In this document: positions 2,614 through 19,371 of the stretch, one piece after another
Layout of the letters: each line of letters begins with the position of its first letter
Position numbering within the stretch: the stretch's first letter is position 1
DNA from: a virus
DNA length: 23,428 nt
Virus record (IMG/VR): IMGVR_UViG_3300017741_002102
Location: 1 to 23,428 of that record
Direction: 5' to 3' (one strand)
Notes under the pieces: generated by a model
What the model was told of the DNA's origin: nothing
Seen by the model: the letters and a program-made list of their open reading frames with translations, nothing else
Databases searched by the model: none
Made by a program: the position numbers and the translations under genes

Positions 2614-2709
2614 CACACACACGCATACAAAGTAAGTATTAACCCCCATACCTTAATCTCGGGGCGCATAAAATATGTATGAATTAGTCAATTTAAACCT
2701 GGCAATTTG

Positions 2710-2787
2710 TGGAGGTGGTGGGAGTCGAACCCACTGTTATTAGATGTTTATATGGGATAAGATCTAACACGAAACCAGTACACCCCC
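2710..2787 (-). ncRNA. Mini-tmRNA: tRNA-like domain of tmRNA without a tag region
   Basis: The 78-base transcript starts GGGGGUGUACUGGUUUCG and ends GUUCGACUCCCACCACCUCC plus A. The 5' GGGGGUG pairs with 3' CACCUCC over seven pairs with a G3.U70 wobble and A73, the identity elements for alanine charging used by tRNA-Ala and tmRNA. The T arm is perfect (GUGGG, UUCGACU, CCCAC). The D region lacks a proper stem and reads CUGGUUUCG, as in tmRNA. Where tmRNA has helix P2, this RNA has UUAGAU paired with AUCUAA, capped by UUAU/AUAA and loop CCCAU. No seven-base anticodon loop is possible, and there is no room for the pseudoknots or tag frame. CCA is not encoded. Alternatives are an attachment-site copy of the host ssrA gene or a decayed phage tmRNA. 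Confidence 0.7.
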
Positions 2788-2794
2788 CGTCTAC

Positions 2795-2822
2795 AGTATA
2801 CTATATATAGTGTAGTCTATAA
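2795..2822 (-). promoter_or_regulatory. Candidate promoter of the mini-tmRNA
   Basis: On the minus strand a TATACT box (2800 down to 2795) stands seven bases before the first G of the RNA, so transcription would begin at or next to the mature 5' end. The -35 region is weak (TTATAG at a 16-base spacing). The placement of the -10 box supports the RNA being expressed independently. Confidence 0.45.
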
Positions 2823-2883: not shown

Positions 2884-3125
2884 GTCGAGCGCGCGGCAGT
2901 CGTAGCAATCCCTGTGTCACTCCCAACCCAACGCAGTTTATTAAGTGCAGTAACGTAAAAATATTGTCTCTCTCTAATAAATAAAATGTGAGGAAGATCC
3001 CTCAACGGATGACTAAGGCGGTCCTGCTAGTCCAACCACAACTCTTTTGTATTATCATATGGTGTTTGTATAGGCAGGAACACCACATTACTTATCCCAC
3101 GTATGCTACACTATACCATAGAGAT

Positions 3126-12824: not shown

Positions 12825-14605
12825 TGACAGAAGAATTTAAACAGGCGCTAGTACAAAGTATTATAGATCAGCGTGGTTTTACAGAAAATGAACAGATATA
12901 TAAAGATCTTGTTGCATTAGTCAAAGAATCTAATGATCAATTGTTTATTGCTAAAGTGTATAACGATCTAGCAATGTACGACAAAATACAAGCACAGATG
13001 TCTAATCAGTTAATAAGTTTTGAGTCTGCATACAGTGGAGTTATGGGACAACCCACTGCTAACCCTACACTTGCTACATTTAACAAAGCAGTAGATAACA
13101 ATGCAGAGTCTCGTACATGGAGAAATCCTCAATCCCCAAAAGAAGAAAAATTTGCAGCAGATATATATAGAGGTTTAGATGTTGCTGCAGGGCTTAAAGG
13201 TCCTGAAGGTTCAGAAAATGCTAGTAAGTATTATGACTATTTAAACACAAAACTAGAACAAATAGTTGAAGAGACAGGTACATTAGGAGTTATAGTTAGA
13301 CCACCACGTGGTGAGGGTGGACAGATTTATGTCACAGAAGATCTTAATGAATGGTTTCTTAACAATCCACCTAGAGATATGACAGAAGGTTTTTATCCTA
13401 CAGAAGGTAAAGATTATAAAAAATATCCTGGATTTGCTAAACCTACAATATTAACAAAACCAGTTATGACTTTTAATGATGAGTCAGGATACTACGAACA
13501 TACTGGAGATTACTTGTTTGGTGCTGAAACTTTTAATGACAGTGGTAAATTTAATACAGCTTTAGATACTGGTGATACATTCCAGGTAGCTGTTGGTGTG
13601 AATAGACCTGACGGCACAAGTACTGGAGAAGTACAGACACTAAGCTATGATGAATTGCAATTACTTAATTCAGAAGTAGAAGGTGATCCATCTAAAACTA
13701 TTATCAACGTATCAGGTGATAAACAAGAAATTAATGCACAATTACAACAATGGATTGATTTTAATACACAACAAGCTAATGCACCTGAATATGATATTTT
13801 TGGAGGGATCTCACCTGACTATGCAATATATAAACAACCTGATGTAGCAGACGCTTTTAAAGACGGAGATCCTACAGCAGCACAAATGAAGGACGCTATG
13901 TTACCGCAGCAAGTATATGCAGGTAATATTCCTGAAGGTCAGTTTTATGGTGGCACAGATCACATATCAGGTCAAGGACCAGGTATGAATGGTACACAGA
14001 AAATATCATGGATCTCATTAGCGCCACAGGAAATAAAAGCTGTACAAGTAGATTTAATGCAAGCAGGTTATATAACTGCTGAAGACTTCTTTTTAGAACA
14101 AGGTGCATGGCAAGGTAAAACATCACAAGGTATGTACTCTGCTATGGTTGACGCAAACTTAAACATGATAGATGTGTATTCACAACTTAACAGTGAGAAG
14201 GAACGTTATTTCAAGAAACCACCTTTAGCACCTAAAGTATATGCAACACCATCTCCAGGATTTATTAAAGGAGAAATAGACAATGCACTCAGATCTGCAG
14301 GAGTTACACGTAAACTAACAGACGCAGAACTCATTGCTTTTAGTGATTTCTATATAGGCGCAGATAAAGATTATGAGACAGCAAGTGCAGAATATAGTAA
14401 GAATCTTGATTTAGCTAACAGGTTATTTCCTGGCGCACCTGATAGTATTTCTATACCAAGTACACCAAGTGAAGAACTTGCAGCATTTGCAGAACAAAAG
14501 TTTGAACCTGAACTAGCAGCACAGCAGAGAGGTATACAAGAAAAGAATGATCTTAGCTTTTTGTTTAGTTCATTAGATCAATTCGATAATATGATTGGAA
14601 GATAA
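12824..14605 (+). CDS. Virion structural protein of actinophage type, 593 aa
   Basis: The first part is helical (MTEEFKQALVQSIIDQRGFT). The middle is rich in Asp, Gly and Thr. From about residue 395, WISLAPQEIKAVQVDLMQAG, GAWQGKTSQGMYSAMVDAN resembles the layout of peptidoglycan-binding repeats ('q..L...G....G.wg..T..A'). The next segment, FIKGEIDNALRSAGVTRKLT followed by DAELIAFSDFY and a charged, Ala-rich end, is a pattern I know from minor virion proteins of actinobacteriophages. It is probably part of the ejection or internal complex with its neighbours, and it sits in TAATG overlaps on both sides. The assignment is by resemblance only. Confidence 0.65.
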   Translation: MTEEFKQALVQSIIDQRGFTENEQIYKDLVALVKESNDQLFIAKVYNDLAMYDKIQAQMSNQLISFESAYSGVMGQPTANPTLATFNKAVDNNAESRTWRNPQSPKEEKFAADIYRGLDVAAGLKGPEGSENASKYYDYLNTKLEQIVEETGTLGVIVRPPRGEGGQIYVTEDLNEWFLNNPPRDMTEGFYPTEGKDYKKYPGFAKPTILTKPVMTFNDESGYYEHTGDYLFGAETFNDSGKFNTALDTGDTFQVAVGVNRPDGTSTGEVQTLSYDELQLLNSEVEGDPSKTIINVSGDKQEINAQLQQWIDFNTQQANAPEYDIFGGISPDYAIYKQPDVADAFKDGDPTAAQMKDAMLPQQVYAGNIPEGQFYGGTDHISGQGPGMNGTQKISWISLAPQEIKAVQVDLMQAGYITAEDFFLEQGAWQGKTSQGMYSAMVDANLNMIDVYSQLNSEKERYFKKPPLAPKVYATPSPGFIKGEIDNALRSAGVTRKLTDAELIAFSDFYIGADKDYETASAEYSKNLDLANRLFPGAPDSISIPSTPSEELAAFAEQKFEPELAAQQRGIQEKNDLSFLFSSLDQFDNMIGR

Positions 14606-17600
14606 TGGATAATGAAGATAAAGTTATGCAACTTCTTGATGATCTCAAAGAAAAATACGGAGAGTTTTTAGACAGTACTGCTAGTGAAGCAGGAGATGGC
14701 AGCGGTTTACATTTTGATTTAACAAGTGGAAATATAATCAATGGTAATGAAATATATATAGAATCATTTTATTTAAAACCTGAAGCACAAGGTCAAGGCA
14801 TTGGTAGAAAAATGGTTGACGCTTTAAAACAATTATCAGACGAAATAAATGTACCTATTACTTTATTAGATAAAACTTTAGAATCAGCATACAGTAGTAG
14901 CTTTTGGAGAAACATGGGATTTGATCTTGATGATGATACAGCTTCAGCATTCTATAATTACGAAGGAGATCCTCAAAGTTCAAGATTTGCAAAAGAAAGT
15001 TTGCTATTAGACGAAGGACTATCTGACGATGTTGCAGAAGTTAACAATGACTTTGTATATGAGAAATTTAAAGATCGTCAGAACACAGCAGACAATGTAA
15101 TTTTTAAAGAAGCACAAGATGGGACTATAGAACTTCTTGTTATTAAACGCAAGCGTGGTCCACATAGAGATTTGTTTGCGTTACCTGGTGGCATAGTTGA
15201 AGCAGAAATGTCTGATGAAAAAATAATTAAAAGTGTTGTTGATCCTAATGAAGTAGGACGTTTGCAAGAGTTCTATTTTAATATTGATGGTAAATTTATA
15301 CCAAACGAAAGCGGAAGTGCTTCTAGAATTTTTGCATTAGAAGCATTGCGTGAAGCAGTTGAAGAAGTTGGTTTAGAGAGTAAATTTATTAGAGCTTCAC
15401 AACCTTTACCTATTAAATACAATAGATATGATTGGGACGCAAGAGCAGCTAGTGGTGTAAACGTTGGTGGTGCGTTTACGATTATAAAAGATTTACAAAA
15501 TGATGAAGTAGTCAACGGACAAATAAAATCTACTTTTACAGAATGGAAACCAAAAGCAGGAGATGACGCTTTATCTTATCAATGGATAAAACTTGAAGAT
15601 GTTATTGACGGATCAGCAGAACTTGCATTTGGACACACAGAGTTTGTAGAAGACGCATTAACAACTTCTTTAAAAAACAAATATTTTGATAAATCTAATA
15701 TGTTTACAATAATTAAAGGCACAGCTGTATATGATTTTGAAGATGTTGAAAATCTTAAAATACAAACACAAGCTGCTGCAAAACGAAACATTGATATTAT
15801 AAACGGTAGTAATGTAGTACGTGAACAAGTTGGTCAACCAATAATACCTATAGAAGGTAACAATGTTATTGATCGTCAAAACAAAGCAATGATTGATAGC
15901 ATTAGACAAATGGGTAAAATGGATTATGGCAATAATATAAAATTCAATGCTATGGATCAAATGAGATCTGACTTTATATTTATAGATATTATGCACTCTG
16001 CAATAAAAAACCCAACAATAGTTACATTAGGTTCTGCAGATATTGAAGGCAATGTAGTACCTACAAGAAATCAAATGATGAACAGCGAGTTTATTTTTGA
16101 CGCAGACCTAACTGAGAAAGGTAAAAAGCGCGTTACAAAATTAATTACAGAACATACTAAAAGATATTACAGATCTTTATTAAAAAGAAAATTAAACGAA
16201 GGCATGCAAATAACACCAGTTATTGTTGCTATGCAACAAAATGCAGATAAAATTATTAACAGTCAAGAATTTAAAACAATAATTTCAGAATCATTTGAAC
16301 GAGTAATGGTGGAAGAAGCAGATGACAATTTGTATTATTTAAAAAGTGCTGATACTGACGCTGCACTTTATTCTTTTTTAGATCCCCAAAATACAATCAT
16401 TGCTAAAGAAGGTTTAGAGGTTGCAGTTGATGATCTTATTGAGTATCAAAAAAATAACAATCCTGCAGTAGGTAATGCGATGGAATCTATTAGAAATAAA
16501 AATAACAAGTTTTATACTAAAACATTTCCCGAAGAGATATATACACCTGCATGGGATTACTATAAAAACAATTCACCTGCTATGCCTGAAGCTATGTTAG
16601 ATACACAAAAGCTAGTTAAAACTGCTGACGGTAATTTAAGTGGGATGGTTTATCACGGTGGTAATGGTCTTAACGCAAAAGGTAGAAAAGTTTTAGACAT
16701 ACTGCAAACATATTTACCTGCTACAAATTTTGGAACAACTGCACCTATGATGGAATTTGAAAATACTATGCAAGGATTTTTAAACCGTATTACCTACGAA
16801 AATAATATTGACTGGTTAGATCCTAGAAAATATAGAAACCAACAACTACGTTTAAATTATATGTACACAACTTCAAATCCATTTCTTGCAGCTTCATATG
16901 CAACAGGTGGTCATAATCCAGGAACAATAAGTGCTATGAATAATGAAGTGTTCGACGCAGTATATCAAATATTAAATCACCAAGATATTCTAGATGTAGA
17001 TGATACAGACTTAATAGACATGATGAATCGTGATTTACGTGAAATTGGTTTAGAAGTAGTAGTGAATCCTAAAGAAGGAAACTATTTAAAAAGTGTAACT
17101 AATGAAAACACATTGTTAGTTGATCCAGGTATTATGCAAATAAAATTCAATGCAGAACCAAATTCAATATTACATACAGACATGCCACTTATAAGACAAA
17201 CTAATAATCCTAATGTTACAAAACTATTAGGACAGGTTATACAGAACTCTAGTCCTGAACATGTGCTATCAGAAGAGTCACTTGATTATTTAATAGAAGA
17301 TTTACACAAAGCAGCAACAAGTAGAGATTTTCAAGTTATAAGAACTGAAGAAGCAGATAGAATAGTTTCTCAAATGTTACTTGACGCAAGAAAAGATGGT
17401 CCTGCAAGAGAAACAATTAAAAAATATTATACAAATATTATGAGTACCGATGAAGGTATGGAAGTTGTTATTAAAAATATTCTTAAAGGCAAAGATGAAT
17501 TTAAAATAAACTTTAGTAATATGCAAGATATTATGGCAGGAATGATTAGACCAAGAGAAGCAATAGCAACTGAACTATATAATGAAGCATTTCAGTATAT

Positions 17601-19371
17601 TAAAAAAGTTGATCGTACTTTTGATAGTACAACATTTGTTACTCCCGAATGGTACCATACGAATCGAACTACAGCAGGACACGTTTTATTTACTGCAAAA
17701 GCAGATGAGTTTTTTCCATATAAAAGAATACAATTTGAAGATATGTTTGAATTTGCTGCAACGCAAGTAGATCCTGCTTCACTAGGTTCACATCAAGCTA
17801 TTTCTGAATTGTTGTCCATTAAAAATATTACAGAGTATCTAAATGATTATCCACAACTTAAAGCAGAGTTCTTTAAAGATTTACCATTGGAAATGGGATA
17901 TGAATATATTGCAAAAGGTGGGAATGGAATCAGCATAAATGATAATCTCCTACAAGATATGGCTATAGCTGCTGAACTAATTAGACAAAAACATGCACTA
18001 CGCTATGAAGCAAAAAATCTAGATGGTAACTTTAGAGACTATAATCCTAATGAAAATGGTGGAAGTAAGTTAGTAGATGATTTAGTTTACGAATCTTTTG
18101 GTTTTAAAGATGGAGATAGAGACCTTATAAACTTTTTAAATCAGATGAATGGACAAACTAGAAGCACTCCAATACCAGGAGGAAATCCAACTAAATACGC
18201 AGATATAGCTTTATTAAAATCTCTATCCGAAAGCGGTATAGAGATAGTTGCAGGTACAGGCGGTGGTCGTCAAAGAAATAATTTCCATGATGTTTTCGGT
18301 ATAGTAGATCCAGGTGACAAGTTTGGTACAGGAATACCAAGAAAAACAACCTACGATATTAAAGCAACAGAATTAAATGAAGATACTTTATTTTTACTTG
18401 ATCAAATAAATATGGGTACAACAAGTCTTAATGATCTTGATGATAACAGTATTAAACAAATTGCTAATTTTATACCTATAGAGACAATTATGCAAAATGA
18501 AGAACTTACTGATATAAAAAAACAACAGTATTTAGAGTTGTATAGTACATTAAATATTAATGACGAACGGTTTTTTAATCTTAGTGAAATAAATCCTACA
18601 GCAATTGATGGTGTATTTTTACAAAACTTTGACGAGCTTAGAGAACTTATTGCAAGACAATCTATATTTGGTGATGTCCAAGATAACGTAGTACAAAATC
18701 ATGCAACAAAAGTTATGGATGAATTGTTTGCACAAGTACCTGCAGAAAATGTAGCAAAAGTAGCAGCAAGAAATGGTCTACTCCAAACATTAGGTAATGG
18801 GTTTGATCTATTTGACGCTGCAGTATTAGGACCAGTTATGTTAGATCTTTTAGTTTCAAAGACAACAGGTGTAGGAAATGCTACTGAAACTATAGGTGGT
18901 GCAGTCGCAGATGTTGCACAAGACATTTATGATCCAAGCAAAACTGACACAACTTTTGAAAAGCTATATGGATCTCCTGAAGATCAAGGTACCTTAGCAG
19001 GTAGTGTAAGTGGTACATTCGATATATATAAAGAAGCAGCTAATCCTATAGTTGAAGAAGCAAAGAACAATAAGTTACTCGGACCAATGTTTGAGAGTAT
19101 TAAAGAAGGTGCTATTTCAGCATTAGATACTGTCAAAGATGGGTTCGGTATGAACGATTGGATATACAATGTCAAAAGAGATATGTATGTATCTACTAAA
19201 CTAAAAGAAAAAGGTTACAATGGTAAAGATAGACGTATACCATCAGGACTTGTTTCACAACTAGAATCAGAATATGAAGCAGGTTTACCAAAACTAGAAG
19301 ATAAATACGGGAGACCATTAGATGTTGCTGACAGTACTAATTTTCCTAAGTACAATCCAGGTAGGAGATAA
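14605..19371 (+). CDS. Polyvalent virion protein: GNAT + Nudix + ADP-ribosyltransferase-like, 1588 aa
   Basis: Residues about 30-118 are a GNAT acetyltransferase domain: FYLKPEAQGQGIGRKMVDAL has the acetyl-CoA loop Q62-x-x-G-x-G, followed by ITLLD and FWRNMGFD. Residues about 163-357 are a Nudix hydrolase: LLVIKRKRGPHRDLFALPGG, G195-x5-E201, then REAVEEVGL (249-257), with an extra ~40 residues between these halves of the Nudix box. Residues about 680-860 look like an ADP-ribosyltransferase: MVYHGG (H684), MYTTSNPFLAASYATGG (Y765), and a later strand IMQIKFNAEPNSILHTD. The remaining 700 residues are unrecognised and end in a hydrophobic stretch (VLGPVMLDLLV) plus a charged tail. Large phage proteins joining such enzymes are known as polyvalent proteins and are thought to be injected. 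Nudix and GNAT calls are strong; ART is moderate. GGAAG precedes the ATG. Confidence 0.8.
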   Translation: MDNEDKVMQLLDDLKEKYGEFLDSTASEAGDGSGLHFDLTSGNIINGNEIYIESFYLKPEAQGQGIGRKMVDALKQLSDEINVPITLLDKTLESAYSSSFWRNMGFDLDDDTASAFYNYEGDPQSSRFAKESLLLDEGLSDDVAEVNNDFVYEKFKDRQNTADNVIFKEAQDGTIELLVIKRKRGPHRDLFALPGGIVEAEMSDEKIIKSVVDPNEVGRLQEFYFNIDGKFIPNESGSASRIFALEALREAVEEVGLESKFIRASQPLPIKYNRYDWDARAASGVNVGGAFTIIKDLQNDEVVNGQIKSTFTEWKPKAGDDALSYQWIKLEDVIDGSAELAFGHTEFVEDALTTSLKNKYFDKSNMFTIIKGTAVYDFEDVENLKIQTQAAAKRNIDIINGSNVVREQVGQPIIPIEGNNVIDRQNKAMIDSIRQMGKMDYGNNIKFNAMDQMRSDFIFIDIMHSAIKNPTIVTLGSADIEGNVVPTRNQMMNSEFIFDADLTEKGKKRVTKLITEHTKRYYRSLLKRKLNEGMQITPVIVAMQQNADKIINSQEFKTIISESFERVMVEEADDNLYYLKSADTDAALYSFLDPQNTIIAKEGLEVAVDDLIEYQKNNNPAVGNAMESIRNKNNKFYTKTFPEEIYTPAWDYYKNNSPAMPEAMLDTQKLVKTADGNLSGMVYHGGNGLNAKGRKVLDILQTYLPATNFGTTAPMMEFENTMQGFLNRITYENNIDWLDPRKYRNQQLRLNYMYTTSNPFLAASYATGGHNPGTISAMNNEVFDAVYQILNHQDILDVDDTDLIDMMNRDLREIGLEVVVNPKEGNYLKSVTNENTLLVDPGIMQIKFNAEPNSILHTDMPLIRQTNNPNVTKLLGQVIQNSSPEHVLSEESLDYLIEDLHKAATSRDFQVIRTEEADRIVSQMLLDARKDGPARETIKKYYTNIMSTDEGMEVVIKNILKGKDEFKINFSNMQDIMAGMIRPREAIATELYNEAFQYIKKVDRTFDSTTFVTPEWYHTNRTTAGHVLFTAKADEFFPYKRIQFEDMFEFAATQVDPASLGSHQAISELLSIKNITEYLNDYPQLKAEFFKDLPLEMGYEYIAKGGNGISINDNLLQDMAIAAELIRQKHALRYEAKNLDGNFRDYNPNENGGSKLVDDLVYESFGFKDGDRDLINFLNQMNGQTRSTPIPGGNPTKYADIALLKSLSESGIEIVAGTGGGRQRNNFHDVFGIVDPGDKFGTGIPRKTTYDIKATELNEDTLFLLDQINMGTTSLNDLDDNSIKQIANFIPIETIMQNEELTDIKKQQYLELYSTLNINDERFFNLSEINPTAIDGVFLQNFDELRELIARQSIFGDVQDNVVQNHATKVMDELFAQVPAENVAKVAARNGLLQTLGNGFDLFDAAVLGPVMLDLLVSKTTGVGNATETIGGAVADVAQDIYDPSKTDTTFEKLYGSPEDQGTLAGSVSGTFDIYKEAANPIVEEAKNNKLLGPMFESIKEGAISALDTVKDGFGMNDWIYNVKRDMYVSTKLKEKGYNGKDRRIPSGLVSQLESEYEAGLPKLEDKYGRPLDVADSTNFPKYNPGRR

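Follow-up and report, generated by a model that had tools for sequence, protein, structure and literature searches.

The closest described system is the tmRNA of mycobacteriophage DS6A, which is reported in accounts of the tmRNA database to consist of little more than a tRNA-like domain (TLD) and is referred to there as 'TLD only' (PMC4131195, PMC11915505, citing Mao et al. 2009). According to the same accounts, a DS6A-like molecule is a strong inhibitor of tmRNA in E. coli, chargeable or not, perhaps through titration of SmpB (PMC4131195, PMC11915505). These database papers, from 2014 and 2025, also record that the tag reading frame is missing in mitochondrial and two plastid tmRNAs (PMC4131195, PMC11915505). 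The RNA gene described here is located in a window of 23,428 nt, the whole stretch of viral DNA that was analysed, and resembles the DS6A tmRNA (tmID 11587 of the tmRNA Website), as that RNA is described, in being phage-borne, tagless and composed of little beyond the TLD. Its placement with the DS6A kind follows from the published description and not from sequence, the window RNA being a phage-encoded TLD that features both G3.U70 and A73. The DS6A RNA comes from a single named phage with a tRNA-Lys attachment site, whereas the window RNA belongs to a conserved lineage in whose searched members no integrase was found. The initial annotation knew of no earlier stand-alone TLD, but the reported DS6A RNA is such a case (PMC4131195, PMC11915505). 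Within the open-access literature searched, the TLD-only kind is known from this one named phage, and other reports are possible. What appears to be new is the breadth: a conserved family, distinct TLD-only RNAs in unrelated phages, and unannotated genes in Streptomyces phages.

Other tmRNA forms share part of this architecture. The one-piece tmRNA (RF00023) has both TLD halves, G3.U70, A73, the T arm and the tmRNA D loop in common with the window RNA, but is about 270–370 nt long and carries an mRNA-like domain, a tag frame and pseudoknots, none of which are present in the approximately 80 nt of the window RNA. The permuted two-piece tmRNA (RF04321), encoded by marine phages such as Melnitz and by Ruegeria phage RpAliso, likewise features a tmRNA-type TLD; in it the T arm comes before the D loop, with a tag piece after both, in contrast to the order of 5' acceptor, D loop and T arm in the window RNA. 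The tmRNAs of oomycete mitochondria and Mallomonadaceae plastids are also tmRNA-derived and without a tag reading frame. These tag-less tmRNAs are organellar, the mitochondrial ones being served by a nuclear-encoded, targeted SmpB, whereas the window RNA is encoded on a phage genome. The RpAliso match obtained in the present searches (3' half only) represents a full permuted tmRNA and was kept as a control. This complete permuted tmRNA (L144:1443-1786) is unannotated in the RpAliso record.

Identification and anatomy of the RNA gene

The gene is encoded on the minus strand, from 2787 to 2710, and its 78 nt make up a complete tmRNA TLD alone (Table 1); the coordinates in the initial annotation were exact. 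The minus-strand sequence from 2787 to 2710 reads GGGGGUG UACUGGUUUCG UGUUAGAU CUUAUCCCAUAUAAAC AUCUAAUA ACA GUGGG UUCGACU CCCAC CACCUCC A. The acceptor stem (GGGGGUG/CACCUCC) is composed of seven pairs including G3.U70, and the P2 helix (UGUUAGAU/AUCUAAUA) is composed of eight pairs, one of them G.U, closed by 16 nt. The CCA end is not encoded, as A73 is followed by CAAAUU. A sixth G is located at position 2788 of the window and is missing from most close relatives; because of this extra G, the 5' end of the RNA is ambiguous by one base. The minimum-free-energy fold of the 78-nt RNA is the expected acceptor stem, P2-like hairpin and T arm. Sequence and fold together agree with the anatomy first noted for the element, that is, an acceptor with G3.U70 and A73, a T arm, a tmRNA D loop and a P2-like helix. 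The folding energy itself is unremarkable (z -1.7) and for this reason was left out as evidence.

Table 1. Features of the TLD-only RNA gene and its conserved flanks, in window coordinates.
Feature	Position	Strand	Basis
TLD-only tmRNA gene, 78 nt; G1 = 2787, A73 = 2710	2710..2787	-	RF00023 and conservation
Acceptor stem, 5' strand, GGGGGUG; G3 = 2785	2781..2787	-	Invariant in 16 variants
D region, UACUGGUUUCG, tmRNA-type, without D stem	2770..2780	-	Alignment to RF00023 consensus
P2-like helix, 5' strand, UGUUAGAU	2762..2769	-	Fold; core kept in most relatives
16-nt closing loop, CUUAUCCCAUAUAAAC, in place of mRNA-like domain; without tag frame	2746..2761	-	Sequence
P2-like helix, 3' strand, AUCUAAUA	2738..2745	-	Fold
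T arm, GUGGG-UUCGACU-CCCAC, 5-pair stem and 7-nt loop	2718..2734	-	Pair variation across relatives
Acceptor stem, 3' strand, CACCUCC; U70 = 2713	2711..2717	-	Invariant in 16 variants
Promoter-like block, TATAGTATACTGTAGAC	2789..2805	-	About 90% column identity, 13 relatives
Conserved 3' flank of RNA	2670..2709	-	About 90% column identity

Comparison with the tmRNA model RF00023 produced a match of 52.6 bits (E 2.7e-18 for the window; gathering score 47 bits) in which model positions 1–374 are spanned in 81 nt, bearing out the earlier description of a TLD without an mRNA domain. When the window was searched against all of Rfam, RF00023 was the sole match above threshold. The tRNA model RF00005 was not among the matches listed for the window, overlaps from related families scored below tmRNA, and the permuted tmRNA model RF04321 gave only a sub-threshold partial match of 22.6 bits to the RNA. 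ARAGORN analysis of the window returned 0 genes, neither tmRNA nor tRNA. An anticodon loop is absent in every variant checked, and the D stem and anticodon arm of a tRNA were not found. The Rfam and ARAGORN comparisons proposed in the initial annotation returned a tmRNA above cut-off, an empty ARAGORN result and no ordinary tRNA. The mRNA-like domain (resume codon, tag frame and pseudoknots) is also absent, the gap from the D region to the T arm being only 35 nt. The case for a TLD-only RNA rests on the covariance-model score together with conservation and covariation, not on energy, and the element is assigned with high confidence as a genuine TLD-only RNA gene.

Conservation across terL-linked loci

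A TerL scan of IMG/VR identified 74 loci with about 79–100% identity. Among 53 loci linked to terL in which the region is covered, 52 (window included) have the RNA intact, in 16 distinct sequences. Its position and orientation are identical wherever the upstream region of terL is present, save in L067, the sole damaged locus, where the 3' third is missing through deletion or assembly error. In the 16 variants the acceptor and T-stem cells are 100% paired (shuffled mean 93.4%), and pairing falls to 69% or less when the partner is slid by 1–3 columns. In three of the five T-stem pairs both bases differ between relatives with pairing retained, providing the compensatory changes in related phages that had been suggested as a check on the element. 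The G3.U70 pair and A73 are unchanged in 16/16 variants. The acceptor stem as a whole exhibits no variation and, being invariant, is evidence of constraint but not of covariation. The P2 helix is weaker, with a GTTA/TAAC (CTAAC/GTTAG) core in most variants and a single mismatch in several. This core is GTAAG/CTTAC in one variant group and exhibits one U-A to A-U swap in L042, L043 and L045. The D-loop/T-loop contact bases covary in all 16 variants, with TGG and TTC found together in nine and TAG and TGC in seven, and this joint change may be a single event. The second clade (TAG/TGC) scores poorly against RF00023.

Genomic setting

The window phage is a tailed phage in which TerL, portal and major head proteins were found, and it is presumably marine, given what the source metagenome numbers are taken to mean. 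The RNA lies in a non-coding region directly upstream of terL and is divergent from it; the surrounding predicted phage genes share one direction, and the RNA is encoded in the opposite one. No SmpB gene was found among 25 contigs that either carry such an RNA or are related. The promoter-like block TATAGTATACTGTAGAC is present as a single copy in the window and contains TATACT (2800-2795), a plausible -10 element that ends 7 nt before G1. A -35 consensus was looked for near the block and not found, and for this reason the block is regarded as a putative promoter only. The conserved 3' flank of the RNA is a possible processing or termination signal.

Additional non-coding blocks are located between the RNA and terL (2910-2949 and 2970-3029). 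They are 89–100% conserved in 13 relatives, exceeding the conservation of the RNA itself, and may be a signal for packaging, an origin or part of the terL leader. A terminator-like hairpin, TGAGGGATCTTCCTCA followed by CATTTTATTT, is located at 2989-3004 on the minus strand, upstream of the promoter-like block, and is conserved in relatives. In the virion-gene region, a 1588-aa protein (14605-19371) has a GNAT acetyltransferase domain at its N terminus and also matches NUDIX weakly.

TLD-only RNAs in other phages

IMG/VR was searched for the layout of a D-loop motif, 22–52 nt, a T arm and an acceptor end. This search identified TLD-only RNAs in contigs without the terL setting, among them phage contigs as long as 194 kb, and in these phages the RNAs are located elsewhere, for example in tRNA clusters. 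A pattern scan for the window family found 55 stretches, comprising members of the family and others; as exact-pattern scans, these provide minimum values for the viral contig counts. RF00023 scored the other TLD-only RNAs scanned at 47–73 bits, always with model positions 1–374 in about 70–88 nt. Most TLD-only families retain a D loop of the tmRNA type. In many of these RNAs the P2 hairpin contains an internal loop rich in A and is capped by a short CC..GG, unlike that of the window family.

Because the earlier patterns forced U70, base 70 was left free in one scan, in which C71, C72 and A73 were still forced by the pattern. No contig was added, and G3.U70 is present in 15/15 distinct RNAs, in which pairs 4–7 exhibit four or five base combinations each. 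The G3.U70 pair is inherited from tmRNA; that it has been retained while the pairs next to it drift suggests that alanine charging is under selection.

Routine annotation misses these genes, as ARAGORN called no TLD-only RNA correctly in the loci tested. The start of the 530-nt 'tmRNA' that it predicted in L105 is 450 nt upstream of the TLD, and the proposed tag is not credible; RF00023 assigns 80 nt at this locus. Several layout matches were set aside. L080, L082, L084, L094, L096 and similar loci are tRNA-Ser-like or protein-coding-like and were discarded by the acceptor-stem test, and a 69-nt match in L103 is doubtful, lacks the tmRNA D loop and was not counted. Weak extra RF00023 matches in three large phages are ordinary tRNAs. 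Also not counted was Microbacterium phage Camille, which has the T arm in common but an acceptor without G3.U70. Two TLD-only RNAs are preceded on the same strand by Pistol ribozymes, one about 200 nt away (L106:706-767) and the other about 1.25 kb away (L127:5471-5534).

A BLAST search with one candidate matched about 82 Streptomyces phage records, in which a TLD-only RNA of 80 nt is encoded. The gene is located between tRNA genes and is unannotated in all records listed. Examples are found at L133:1485-1690 on the minus strand and at 501-577 in L139, L140, L141, L142, L143 and L146. The variants exhibit compensatory P2 changes. RF00023 scores these RNAs at 29–37 bits, below the cut-off, yet positions 1–374 are spanned in 80 nt; the assignment in phage LukeCage rests on homology and structure, as RF00023 did not list the RNA there. 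A full tmRNA of about 270–285 nt is also encoded in 5/5 Streptomyces phage genomes checked, with tag peptides predicted by ARAGORN of ANSNVASAYALAA in LukeCage and AESNSAFALAA in Mildred21. A paper describing phages of this type reports one tmRNA (PMC5764925), which is evidently the full one. Since a conserved family and unannotated genes in cultured phages have been found, phage manipulation of ribosome rescue is now directly testable in existing isolates, including dozens of cultured Streptomyces phages.

Predicted function

The window RNA is predicted from its sequence to inhibit or compete in trans-translation, as a rival of host tmRNA that can be charged with alanine and bind SmpB. This reading, in keeping with the decoy suggested in the initial annotation, is the best explanation of those considered and is assigned a probability of roughly one half. 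The mini-RNA would have its own promoter on the minus strand; host enzymes would mature the transcript and add CCA, host AlaRS would charge it, and SmpB and EF-Tu of the host would bind it. It would then vie with host tmRNA for SmpB and stalled ribosomes, and trans-translation would be damped during infection because the mini-RNA offers no resume codon or tag. This proposal is supported by the RF00023 match to both ends without an mRNA-like domain, by conservation, compensation, the joint D-loop/T-loop changes and G3.U70, and by the similar RNAs in unrelated phages and in the Streptomyces phage records. The reported DS6A precedent, with inhibition of E. coli tmRNA perhaps through SmpB titration, is consistent with it by analogy.

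Some observations count against the competitor proposal. The altered D and T loops of the second clade (TAG/TGC) might weaken SmpB binding, and the Streptomyces phages hold a full tagging tmRNA beside the TLD-only RNA, a misfit to simple blocking there. This coexistence and the strict G3.U70 both resist a plain SmpB sponge, and titration of SmpB alone does not explain the conserved pair, as the inhibition was reported to need no alanine charging. A charged competitor entering stalled ribosomes, or a tagless rescue RNA, fits the strict G3.U70 better than a plain sponge does. A wider form of the competitor proposal, offered tentatively and with the odds somewhat against it, is that stand-alone TLDs are a widespread class of phage regulatory RNAs that arose or diversified in many lineages and target trans-translation as alanyl-RNA/SmpB competitors. 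If this is true, the TLD of the BE1 Streptomyces phages would act beside the phage's own full tmRNA, setting tagging versus untagged stalling.

As a tagless rescue RNA, the charged TLD with SmpB would enter stalled ribosomes and clear them untagged, as proposed for the frameless mitochondrial tmRNAs. Mitochondrial and some plastid tmRNAs have been kept despite the lost tag frame, and the strict retention of G3.U70 is what a peptide acceptor would require. This role is nevertheless unlikely, since without a stop codon a peptidyl-TLD has no known release route in bacteria, and the phage-type TLD that was tested is reported to have inhibited tmRNA. The RNA could also serve another partner, as an alanine donor or as a sacrificial substrate for a host nuclease or toxin directed against acceptor ends. 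No part of the RNA is better conserved than the acceptor and T arm, and the BE1 Streptomyces carriers also encode 43–48 tRNAs, a suggested counter to tRNA-based defences; neither role needs the tmRNA-type D loop that is kept in most families, and such a partner appears quite unlikely. The position of the element, divergent and adjoining terL upstream amid other strongly conserved blocks, would suit a packaging or terL-regulating RNA of borrowed tRNA shape, transcribed against the terL leader. An alanine identity pair is useless for packaging, however, and TLD-only RNAs of other phages are not tied to this position, making such a role improbable.

The initial annotation also raised the option of an attachment site copying host ssrA, and such a fragment or a pseudogene is highly improbable, because no tyrosine integrase was found in 20 relatives (contigs up to 44 kb) or in 25 further records, most with other TLD-only RNAs, and no resolvase or serine recombinase in 12 relatives; both TLD halves are moreover intact with a complete 5' half, the T stem is compensated, and damage is confined to the single locus noted above. 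Several TLD-only RNAs lie beside ORFs of ~390 aa, which are integrase-sized but have no integrase match. The ssrA gene does serve phages as an integration site, and Mycobacterium phage Validus has an ssrA fragment adjoining its integrase. The Validus match is an attP fragment comprising the 3' half of ssrA only, in contrast to the two halves of the window RNA, and was kept as a control.
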